In this document: one piece after another, positions 171-8,133 of the stretch
How positions within the stretch are numbered: the first letter of the stretch is position 1
How the letters are laid out: each line of letters begins with the position of its first letter
Assembly (NCBI GenBank): GCA_013139395.1
Contig: WTAX01000466.1
Location: 1 to 11,020, forward strand
DNA length: 11,020 bases
Reading direction: 5' to 3'
From: Gammaproteobacteria bacterium
GTDB taxonomy: Bacteria > Pseudomonadota > Gammaproteobacteria > GRL18
Position numbers and translations under genes: made by a program
Notes under the pieces: model-generated
Database searches by the model: none
Told to the model about the DNA's origin: nothing
What the model saw: only the letters and a program-made list of their open reading frames with translations

Positions 171-788
171 ATGACAGAACATAATCCAATTGAAATCAAC
201 CTGCACAAAAAATCACGCTTATTAGAAATCAGTTTTGATACCGGTGAAAACTTTAAATTAAGTTGTGAGTATTTACGTACTCATGCCAAATCTGCAGAAA
301 TCACCACATCTGATAAACCTGTCGCAGGTAAAATCAGTGTCAATATTGACTCCATCGAAGCACAGGGTACTTATGCACTCAGACTCTTTTTTGATGATAG
401 CTATGATCAAGGCATCTATTCCTGGGAAACATTGTACGACCTGGGTAAAAATTATGAAAAATATTGGGCTTTATACCTTTTTGCATTAGAAGAACATCAT
501 TTAAACCGGGGTGAAGTTGACAATGCTCATAAAGGACCATCAATAATTAAAATCTTATATTTTATGGATAAGCTCATCAAATTCACCAAAGAAGAGGAAG
601 ATCTGGAGTTGCCGGAAGAGGTAAATACAGTACAGCAACTTCTGGTACTATTACGCAGCCGCGGCAATCGCTGGGAACGAGCATTTAGCGATGATGCCGT
701 TCAATTTACCGTCAACAAAGAATTTGCTGAGTTATTTACAGTATTAGAACATGGTGATGAAATTGCCCTGATACCTAAAGCTAAATAA
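171..788 (+). CDS. DUF971 domain fused to a MoaD/ThiS-like beta-grasp domain without C-terminal Gly-Gly
   Basis: This 205-residue protein appears to have two domains. Residues about 5-105 match the DUF971 / GBBH-like N-terminal fold: an early PIEINLHKKSRLLEI strand, an LR..AKSAEI stretch, and near the end FDDSYDQGIYSWETLYDLG. Most members have DDGH where this one has DDSY. Residues about 124-203 resemble MoaD (small subunit of molybdopterin synthase): IIKILYF, then ELPEEVNTVQQLLVLL, then VNKEFAEL and HGDEIALIP. Functional MoaD/ThiS proteins end in Gly-Gly, which is adenylated and thiocarboxylated. This protein ends IPKAK, so it should not act as a standard sulfur carrier. DUF971 domains are also found near or fused to iron-sulfur assembly proteins, so a cofactor-related role is possible but inferred. 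The ATG at 171 is the first in frame and gives a natural DUF971 N-terminus. No good ribosome binding site is visible. Repeat copy 1 starts 4 bp after the stop. Confidence 0.8.
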   Translation: MTEHNPIEINLHKKSRLLEISFDTGENFKLSCEYLRTHAKSAEITTSDKPVAGKISVNIDSIEAQGTYALRLFFDDSYDQGIYSWETLYDLGKNYEKYWALYLFALEEHHLNRGEVDNAHKGPSIIKILYFMDKLIKFTKEEEDLELPEEVNTVQQLLVLLRSRGNRWERAFSDDAVQFTVNKEFAELFTVLEHGDEIALIPKAK

Positions 789-791
789 AGC

Positions 792-955
792 GTTACTATT
801 CAGCGTGTTATTTACAAAAAGCCTGTGGTTGCTTATTTTTCTGACTTTGATTGTCTGAGCGCAGCGACATCTCGTAACAGAAAGTCAAAGTTAGAAAAAT
901 AAGTGACCATAGGCTTAACACTAGTAATTAGAAATACTCACTTCTGAATAGTTAC
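792..955 (+). mobile_element. MITE-like hairpin element, copy 1 (perfect 8-bp target duplication)
   Basis: This is a 164-bp non-coding element. Its left end GTTACTATTCAG (792-803) is the inverted counterpart of CTGAATAGTTAC at its right end (944-955). It is flanked exactly by the direct repeat AATAAAGC at 784-791 and 956-963, an 8-bp target-site duplication. Inner arms 819-848 and 887-916 pair over 30 positions with four differences, all G-U compatible in plus-strand RNA. The loop holds TGAGCGCAGCGA (856-867) and is about 15 bp longer than in the other copies. The duplication contains the stop codon of the preceding gene, so the insertion left that reading frame intact. The GTAA-type end and 8-bp duplication resemble IS66-family elements; this parentage is inference. 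No transposase is encoded. Confidence 0.88.
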
Positions 956-993
956 AATAAAGCATAGCAAAATAAAATACAGACCCTTTAAAA

Positions 994-5635: not shown

Positions 5636-5656
5636 GAAAAGATCCCAATTATTTTT

Positions 5657-5668
5657 GTAACTATTCAG
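5657..5668. repeat. Solitary copy of the element terminal sequence
   Basis: GTAACTATTCAG here is a perfect 12-bp inverted match to CTGAATAGTTAC at the right end of element copy 2 (5876-5887). It is also identical to the right-end sequence of copy 1 read inward. It is preceded by TTTT, as is the left end of copy 2. It may be the remains of an older insertion, or the original outer end of copy 2. It lies in the leader of the export operon. Confidence 0.6.
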
Positions 5669-5698
5669 CAACCCAAGCCGAAAACGGCTAACCATCTA

Positions 5699-5746
5699 TA
5701 AGTTACAAAAGATATAAAATACAAAGACTTATATTTTTGTAACTTA
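5699..5746. promoter_or_regulatory. Long inverted repeat upstream of the export operon, candidate operator
   Basis: TAAGTTACAAAA (5699-5710) and TTTTGTAACTTA (5735-5746) are a perfect 12-bp inverted repeat separated by 24 bp. ATATAA and TTATAT inside the spacer extend the symmetry. A third TTTTGTAACT lies at 5653-5662, so three 10-bp sites in alternating orientation precede the adaptor start. The right arm runs into the left end of element copy 2. The position suits a regulator of the export operon, possibly the FixJ-type protein encoded just upstream, but binding is inferred. The alternative is that these sites are only remnants of element ends. Confidence 0.45.
5716..5743 (-). promoter_or_regulatory. 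Possible sigma70-type promoter for the export operon
   Basis: On the minus strand GTTACA (5743-5738) and TATTTT (5721-5716) are separated by 16 bp, each matching four of six consensus bases. The -35 hexamer is formed by the end of element copy 2. The adaptor start lies about 80 bases downstream. A short GCCG-TTTT-CGGC hairpin falls in the leader. The call rests on weak consensus only. Confidence 0.25.
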
Positions 5747-5887
5747 GAAGCGTATTATTTACAAAAAGCCTGTGGTTGCTTATTTTTCTGACTTTGATTG
5801 TTTGAGCGCAGCGAGTTCTCAAAGTTAGAAAAATAAGTGACCATGGGCTTAACAAGTGTTATTTAGGAATACACACTGAATAGTTAC
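5739..5887 (+). mobile_element. MITE-like hairpin element, copy 2
   Basis: A 149-bp copy of the family found at 792 and 7934, in the same orientation. The left end GTAACT begins at 5739 and the right end CTGAATAGTTAC closes at 5887. Inner arms 5766-5795 and 5821-5850 differ at five of 30 positions, all G-U compatible in plus-strand RNA. The loop motif TGAGCGCAGCGA is at 5803-5814. I see no clear 8-bp flanking duplication, so this copy is older or rearranged, in line with its diverged left end. It fills the gap between the response regulator stop (5896) and the export operon. Its hairpin could limit read-through from the two-component genes. Confidence 0.8.
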
Positions 5888-5895
5888 TACTTTTA

Positions 5896-6552
5896 TTACT
5901 TGAGATCTTTAATTAAACTGGCTTGATGAATTAGTTCTGACAAATTCTTTGTACCCATCTTTTCCATTGCTTTAGCGCGATGAATTTCAACGGTTCTGGT
6001 ACTAATATTCAATTCATAGGCAATGATTTTATTGAGCTTTCCGGAAACCACTTCTGAAAATATTTCCCGCTCTCTTGGTGTAAGCGTATTAAATCTTTCC
6101 TGTGCATTATGTCTGATATCGTAAACTTCGTGACGTTCATCGTTCATTGCCAGAGCTTGTGAAATACGATCCAGTAATTGTTGATCGCTGAATGGTTTTT
6201 GTAAAAAATCAACAGCCCCGTTTTGTACCGCTTTAACGGCCATAGGAATTTCACCATGGCCTGAGATCATGATAATGGGCAGGAGTGTCTCCATACTGGT
6301 TAGCTTTTCTTGTAAATCCATACCACTCATTCCGGGCATTCTGACATCCAGAATCAAGCAACCCTTTCGATCAGCCTGGAATTGGTTGAAAAATTCATCT
6401 GCTGAAGCAAAACATTCAACGCTATAACCTACTGACTTTATTAATAAACGAAGCGCTGCTCTGACGTCAGGTTCATCATCTACTACAAAAACTGTTTGCT
6501 GGCTGGTAATATCAGTTGAAGTTTGTATTTGTTCGGGCAAGTTATTCTCCAT
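5896..6552 (-). CDS. FixJ/NarL-type response regulator
   Basis: A 218-residue cytoplasmic transcription regulator. The receiver domain (about 20-135) has the acidic pair D25-D26, phospho-acceptor D69 in LILDVRMPG, S97 in MISGHGE and K119 in LQKPF, all intact. The output domain (about 155-212) is a LuxR/FixJ-type helix-turn-helix starting LTPREREI, with KIIAYELNISTRTVEIHRAKAMEKM as recognition region and a final KNLSELI. This arrangement matches FixJ, TtrR and TodT regulators. It starts 4 bp after the stop of the upstream kinase, without a Shine-Dalgarno sequence, so translation is probably coupled. The export operon follows in the same direction, about 260 bp on, and is the most obvious target. 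Because the neighbouring kinase lacks its His, phosphorylation may come from another kinase. Confidence 0.95.
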   Translation of the reverse strand: MENNLPEQIQTSTDITSQQTVFVVDDEPDVRAALRLLIKSVGYSVECFASADEFFNQFQADRKGCLILDVRMPGMSGMDLQEKLTSMETLLPIIMISGHGEIPMAVKAVQNGAVDFLQKPFSDQQLLDRISQALAMNDERHEVYDIRHNAQERFNTLTPREREIFSEVVSGKLNKIIAYELNISTRTVEIHRAKAMEKMGTKNLSELIHQASLIKDLK

Positions 6553-7723: not shown

Positions 7724-7933
7724 AATGGTTTGTTTTTTAGCCTTTTTTAAAAAATGAATAGTAAAGCCATCAGGTAGAGTTGTGTTTTTTTACTCTTCCT
7801 TATCTGATATTATGATTTAGTCATCTAGTCTTTACAATATGTAGAAACCGAGAGAAAAATTTATTTCTTGTTATCTGTAATACTTTTATTGTGTAATATT
7901 ATTATATAAAAGTCGTTCTATATAATAATAAAC
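7724..7933. other. AT-rich divergent intergenic region
   Basis: This stretch separates the PAS kinase (minus) from element copy 3 and the large kinase (plus). It is strikingly AT-rich, with TTTTTTAAAAAA at 7743-7754 and TA-rich runs at 7890-7930. It holds the candidate promoter for the kinase-regulator pair. I see no gene, RNA gene or clear terminator. The last eight bases (7926-7933) are the left target duplication of element copy 3. A plus-strand promoter for the large kinase could lie here but none is convincing. Confidence 0.5.
7809..7837 (-). promoter_or_regulatory. Candidate sigma70 promoter for the kinase-regulator pair
   Basis: On the minus strand TTGTAA (7837-7832) is followed after exactly 17 bp by CATAAT (7814-7809). 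These match four and five of six consensus bases. A transcript would begin near 7802 and have a leader of about 80 bases before the kinase ATG at 7723. This is the best promoter-like arrangement in the divergent gap, judged by eye only. Confidence 0.4.
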
Positions 7934-8082
7934 GTAGCTACTCAGCGTGTTATTTACAAAAAGTCTGTGGTTGCTTATTTTTCTGACTTTGATTGTTTGA
8001 GCGTAGCGAGTTTCAAAGTTATAAAAATAAGTGACCATAGGCTTAACAAACGTTATTTAGAAATACACGCTGAGTTTATTAC
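7934..8082 (+). mobile_element. MITE-like hairpin element, copy 3 (perfect 8-bp target duplication)
   Basis: A 149-bp copy in the same orientation as the other two. It is flanked exactly by TAATAAAC at 7926-7933 and 8083-8090, a perfect 8-bp target-site duplication. CTCAGCGTGT (7941-7950) and ACACGCTGAG (8065-8074) form the outer stem. Inner arms 7961-7990 and 8015-8044 differ at six of 30 positions, five of them G-U compatible in plus-strand RNA. The loop motif is TGAGCGTAGCGA (7998-8009). It separates the AT-rich divergent region from the large kinase start, so it will affect that gene's leader or promoter. A short open frame through it is not considered coding. Confidence 0.88.
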
Positions 8083-8133
8083 TAATAAACTAGCAATTAA
8101 GAATCTCATTGTAATCACTGACAACCCGAAATT

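Follow-up and report, generated by a model that had tools for sequence, protein, structure and literature searches.

Insertion sequences of the IS66 family have GTAA ends and duplicate 8 bp of their target, a length also duplicated by other transposase families, for example those of the IS1595, ISL3, ISAs1 and IS256 types. The usual explanation of MITEs is that they are remnants left by deletions in a parent IS. In the available text of the respective sources, MITECca01 is given as an IS982-derived MITE (PMC9769881) and MITEPsy1 is described with a target duplication (PMC3189936). The elements described here are, as MITEs, ordinary in kind; what is new is their probable IS66 parentage, the arrangement of a hairpin as a cassette, and a hairpin type, found across the class, that combines a fixed tip with a free stem. 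We consider, with a probability of about 0.87, that they are MITEs moved in trans by an IS66 transposase, and that their interior is a separate, class-wide hairpin cassette rather than what remains of a deleted IS. Whereas a MITE is ordinarily seen as such a remnant, ends and interior would here have separate origins. The elements move as units and leave 8-bp duplications, an empty site exists in a relative, and the genus has an IS66 element whose ends are nearly identical.

The window (the whole stretch of DNA analysed, 11,020 nucleotides) lies on contig C194 of a MAG of 3.2 Mb in 550 contigs that is 79% complete (G000). Three related elements were recovered from it as direct repeats, in one orientation throughout, where an initial annotation had placed them. 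Element 1 (164 bp, 792–955, plus strand) has the ends GTTACTATTCAG and CTGAATAGTTAC, and is abutted exactly by AATAAAGC at 784–791, which holds the stop codon of the 171–788 gene, and again at 956–963; the interval 784–963 singled out by the initial annotation comprises this element and its two duplications only. Element 3 (149 bp, 7934–8082, plus strand) lies between two divergent histidine-kinase genes and is abutted just as exactly by TAATAAAC (7926–7933 and 8083–8090), so that the bounds claimed for both of these copies are correct. Element 2, in contrast, had been misbounded at 5739–5887 (plus strand). This 149-bp unit, with a degenerate left end (GTAACTTAGAAG), is internal to a 231-bp composite (5657–5887, plus strand), in which an 82-bp left extension (5657–5738) starts with another GTAACTATTCAG end at 5657. 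The composite has no intact duplication, its flanks agreeing at 5 of 8 positions. Its 230-bp sister on contig C64 (L001) has an exact TAAATATT duplication, and the long form (∼231 bp) has therefore moved as a unit. By eye, the left extension is similar to what adjoins another type of hairpin in G009, G010 and G015, and the 231-bp form would accordingly seem to be a chimera built from two types of MITE. As had been claimed, no transposase is encoded: even the largest window element (231 bp, 77 codons at most) is too short for one.

Each element contains a long hairpin on the plus strand. For element 1 this spans 819–916 (arms 819–857 and 878–916), with the tip TTGTCTGA-GCGCAGC-GA at 851–867 and the GNA mini-hairpin at 859–865; the 3′ part of its loop deviates, with GACATCTCG in place of GAGTT. 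The hairpin of element 2 spans 5766–5850 (tip GCGCAGC at 5806–5812) and that of element 3 spans 7961–8044 (tip GCGTAGC at 8001–8007). The heptamer GCGNAGC at the tip is presumably the known, very stable DNA mini-hairpin of the GNA rule. Compared with shuffled sequences, plus-strand folding gave z values of −7.0, −6.1 and −6.6 for element 1 (first 150 bases only), element 2 (149-bp unit) and element 3, respectively.

The interior of the elements is a separate hairpin class, which the initial annotation missed. The tip motif TGAGCGNAGCGAGTT occurs in 14 of 40 genomes, the MAG itself included, and CTGTYTGAGCGNAGCGAG occurs in 17 of 369 genomes of the class, including the MAG and a congener; the reversed control gave one match in each search. 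With a somewhat wider pattern, 10 of 398 genomes of the phylum had matches, all 10 belonging to the same class, against one control match. The tip pattern is also present in 23 viral contigs, and some tip matches sit outside any hairpin (e.g. L203, L228, L258 and L269). To define the tolerance of the tip, seven bases were left open in 23 genomes preselected for holding the motif, namely 15 of the 17 class genomes (without G000 and G032) and eight relatives. This produced 155 matches, compared with 4 for the reversed control, and in 133 of the 150 matches listed (155 in total) G and A frame one variable base. Among these 133, the variable base is C in 51, T in 49, A in 33 and G in none; the outer pair is G–C in 104, A–T in 24, G–T in three and otherwise in two, and the inner pair is C–G in 127, with T–A, T–G and C–A twice each. 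The tip consensus is TGTYTGA-XYGNAY′X′-GAG, where X/X′ and Y/Y′ are paired and N is variable. G001, G010 and G018, all of one family, account for all 24 A–T outer pairs among the matches listed, which leaves few independent events; a further case was found in G695, from another family.

For the stems, 157 distinct tip instances were reduced to 47 representatives whose 5′ arms are less than 70% identical, and pairing was scored across the eight innermost positions with a small shift allowed and G–T counted. All eight positions are paired in 21 of the 47 representatives but in only 0.8% of swapped arms, and the mean number of paired positions is 6.9 compared with 4.8 after swapping, with 10 of the 47 pairing at five positions or fewer. 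The stems thus differ widely yet remain paired, and the tip is nearly constant, a combination that implies either that the shape is under strong selection or that palindromes are kept paired by some mutational process. The stems of the 16 hairpins examined in G134 are slight variations on one type. In G018 (15 tip matches, 14 of them examined, L482–L495), most hairpins have stems of their own sequence, which look as though one arm had been copied from local sequence. Hairpins of the class also occur in inverted pairs, ∼150–330 bp or 1.7 kb apart (L281–L285), several of which are adjoined by a second palindrome around AAAGAAAAG/CTTTTCTTT. The available parts of the literature list GCGAAGC structures as an oligonucleotide fold (PMC5430850) and contain a stability concept for the mini-hairpin (PMC10527192). 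Searching open papers (titles and starts of abstracts) by tip sequence, together with Rfam, did not return the hairpin class, which on this footing would seem to be undescribed. We regard the class as a larger opening than the MITE itself.

The possibility that the hairpin class acts as RNA, either as a terminator or as a processing signal, is a substantial one, somewhat below even odds: the stems could pair equally in DNA and in RNA, most copies of the MITE are intergenic, and element 3 is situated within a presumed 5′ leader. Against this, no Rfam family reaches its gathering score in the window, and the stretch 5650–5900 has only sub-gathering matches, mostly to microRNA models and with E values of up to 5, by which a known RNA was rejected. 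In addition, the stems of the three window copies are not followed by a T-run, and the framing of one variable base by G and A fits the DNA GNA mini-hairpin. Because the variable base occupies the GNA position and the window copies have no T-run, our guess is that the signal is folded single-strand DNA rather than RNA. The fuller proposal, in which the interior hairpin would belong to a Gammaproteobacteria-wide class of folded single-strand DNA signals, recognised by a nearly constant tip (a GNA triloop flanked by G–A steps) on stems of free sequence, that has been turned into mobile cassettes by IS66 ends in this genus, is tentative and on balance doubtful. If it is true, a structured signal would be spread by the MITE as a small mobile cassette, with the IS66 ends seeding that signal around the genome.

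A conventional origin for the elements is unlikely. They could have spread as an interior-deleted IS derivative, within which the hairpin arose later by chance or by inverted duplication; this is the customary origin of MITEs in the available text of PMC3189936 and PMC9769881, and five hairpin-free forms of 45–82 bp fit it, of which two have an exact duplication (L314, 45 bp, and L315, 72 bp) and one a duplication at 7 of 8 positions. From the two short forms with exact duplications, the hairpin seems dispensable for movement, unless these forms shrank after insertion. What speaks against a deleted IS is that other genera of the class have the tip motif on different stems and not between these ends, from which it follows that the hairpin predates the MITE family or is independent of it; beyond the ends, no matching stretch was seen between the IS66 interior and the MITE interior. 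Two loci in G010 present further class hairpins between IS66-type ends. The first (L501:315–613, 299 bp) has the exact duplication AAAATTAA and a hairpin with the tip ACGCAGT, and the second (L499:308–547, 240 bp) has the exact duplication ATAAAATT and a hairpin with the tip GCAAAGC, the stems differing from one another and from those of the window. These were two of ten G010 hairpin loci examined, the other eight being without such ends by the rule used. These differing stems suggest that more than one member of the class is carried by the ends. Since TTGCT/AGTGA is common to the hairpins that lie between IS66-type ends, a single captured hairpin could also be their ancestor.

We propose that a single-ORF IS66 transposase would act in trans at GTAAC-TATTCAGC-type ends of this non-autonomous family, duplicating 8 bp of AT-rich, mostly intergenic target, while the hairpin, with its nearly fixed tip and free stems, would sit between the ends as cargo. 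The family has several hallmarks of a MITE (short length, no transposase ORF, terminal inverted repeats, target duplication and empty sites). Its autonomous parent was not found in the same genome (G000, 79% complete) and is present in the congeners G008, G012 and G014. The IS66-like mobilisation suggested by the initial annotation is supported in that the genus has an IS66 element whose ends match and which is flanked by an 8-bp duplication; no autonomous copy was found in the assembly itself, and we infer that mobilisation occurs in trans. The full-length element is that of G008 (L173:755–2475), which is 1,721 bp in length with near-identical ends, a single long ORF of 472 amino acids, and ATAAAATG on both sides as its 8-bp duplication. 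Its protein scores 294 bits against the NCBIfam model transpos_IS66 (NF033517; cut-off 180) and 166 bits against Pfam PF03050 (cut-off 23.1), and its single-ORF arrangement is one that we take to be ISBst12-like. The transposase of this element, or a close relative, would probably do the moving.

Ends with 0–2 mismatches from GTAACTATTCAGC were found at L172 and L192 (G014), L173 (G008) and L174 (G012). At L174 both ends are present, the transposase has two stops, and the flanks are unlike one another (no duplication), while L172 and L192 show one end only within the stretch examined; of the IS66 elements seen, L173 alone combines the two ends with a duplication. Inward of the 13 bp in common, a crossed register fits better, with the MITE left end and IS right end giving 0.61 compared with 0.39 (positions 14–22), and the MITE right end and IS left end 0.66 compared with 0.51 (positions 14–28). 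Over positions 14–28, the MITE left end is no closer to the IS right end (0.44) than to the IS left end (0.50); the crossed likeness thus appears modest, its gain depending on the span compared.

Searching the MAG with PF03050 gave a single match, just below the cut-off and without matching ends (L039), which was rejected as the parent; matches above the cut-off occur in 12 of 24 genomes. Within the genus (16 genomes), only G008, G012 and G014 have long matches to the L173 transposase, and short fragments of an L173-like transposase are present in G014, G007 and G010. None was found in the MITE-rich assemblies G000 (79% complete), G001, G002, G003 and G015, and the MITE-rich G009 has only distant IS66 proteins (25–31% identity). 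Such absences are weak evidence, because MAG assemblies lose repeated elements. The congener G013, which has few contigs, contains 68 IS66-domain matches, many of them truncated or with stops, yet only two MITE matches. Another transposase family that duplicates 8 bp might move the elements, with a merely coincidental match to IS66 ends; the assembly has no IS66 transposase with these ends, and the transposase search covered the IS66 family alone. We nevertheless consider this very improbable, given congener IS66 elements with nearly the same 13-bp ends (0–2 mismatches at the four loci named above), one of which has an 8-bp duplication and partly matching inner end sequence.

The many genome copies predicted from the window do exist: GTWACTATTCAG occurs 111 times in the MAG compared with once for its reversed control, these being the exact 12-mers of the GTAACTATTCAGC-type terminal inverted repeats. 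At least 40 copies were scored with a 149-bp query, out of 132 first-look candidates; this number is a floor, since the remaining candidates were left unscored and elements 1 and 3 of the window are absent from that list. To sample complete elements, an end-pairing rule blind to the flanks was applied to 85 stretches of the genome (the window, L001–L038, six pattern loci and L301–L340), resulting in 49 non-overlapping two-ended elements of 45–231 bp; element 3 was missed because its ends have diverged. The flanking 8-mers are exact duplications in 26 of the 49, agree at 7 of 8 positions in eight, and agree at 6 or fewer in 15, whereas swapped flanks of different elements predict 0 exact and 0.5 at 7 of 8. 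The 15 elements without a recognisable duplication are in part decayed copies and in part chance pairings of ends. Exact duplications in this set are 85% A+T, and among the 63 pairings before overlap removal, other duplication lengths (4–12) appeared only twice, both of 4 bp. Duplications were also found in the MAG SY_S20_27 (exact in 19 of 35 elements, with 0.03 expected) and in Thiohalomonas sp. L138_T1 (exact in 3 of 7); judging from alignments that are identical, these two records seem to correspond to G009 and G002.

MITE matches were detected in 11 of 40 genomes including the MAG itself, several of them weak, and are plentiful in the congeners G001, G002, G003, G009 and G015. ORFs of at least 300 nt are left intact by 34 of the 35 insertions in the MAG with enough flank, the single exception being a doubtful pairing, and the orientation of genes at 30 insertion sites shows no clear bias (++ 11, −− 9, +− 7, −+ 3). 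The 231-bp form has no match in plasmid or phage collections, by which carriage on a plasmid or phage was rejected, and the arm pattern has no exact match in viral contigs. One target, AAATTCCT, is filled both in G000 (L327:393–557) and in G002 (L089, complement of 1263–1427), the two MITEs belonging to different subfamilies and pointing in opposite directions; the flanks are ∼96% identical and the elements 88.6% identical when flipped, which suggests either that the target is a hot spot or that conversion replaced one element with another.

The orthologous loci bear out movement as units. At the site of element 1, all 12 genus loci examined with both neighbour genes (none of them from G001, G002 or G014) are without the element, and the closest of them, in G003 (L382), is an empty site that reads through with a single AATAAAGC. 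For element 3, all nine orthologous loci examined with both kinase genes are without the element. A blastn search of all three elements against these 21 loci found none, with the sole matches in L391, from the MAG itself. Synteny beside the response-regulator gene at element 2 is not kept in relatives. A promoter-like block, CGTTCTATATAAT (7914–7926), lies just upstream of element 3 and is exact in 5 of 10 loci, that of the MAG included. In the kinase-gene gap (7831–7926), the block TTTACAATATGTAGAAACCGA is exact in 8 of 10 orthologous loci, again including that of the MAG, and differs by one base in the other two. A non-mobile repeat, for example a REP array or clustered regulatory repeats, which so many hairpins situated between genes would bring to mind, is refuted for the whole element by the exactly abutting 8-bp duplications (26 of 49), the empty site in G003 and the defined 13-bp ends.

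Like IS66 of the single-ORF kind, the elements have GTAA ends and an 8-bp duplication, with a PF03050/NF033517 transposase in a congener's near-identical-ended element; unlike it, the window elements have no transposase and an interior without a match to the IS beyond the ends. As far as the available descriptions of MITECca01 and MITEPsy1 extend, both are likewise IS-derived MITEs of less than 300 bp, with terminal inverted repeats and mostly intergenic positions, and MITECca01 is also of high copy number. The present family differs from these in its IS66-type ends, in that the parental IS was not found in its own assembly, and in that its interior is a hairpin class existing outside the element. 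The tip has the same heptamer as the DNA GNA mini-hairpin d(GCGNAGC), with A, C or T as the middle base (G in none of the 133 matches listed). That mini-hairpin is known as a stable oligonucleotide fold, and to our knowledge no class of genomic hairpins with such a tip was known. Like REP and REPIN sequences (RAYT-associated), the hairpins are dispersed, intergenic and sometimes arranged as inverted pairs. In REP sequences conservation lies in the stem and foot, whereas in the present class it lies in the tip, the stem being free, and the 8-bp duplications belong to DDE-type ends.
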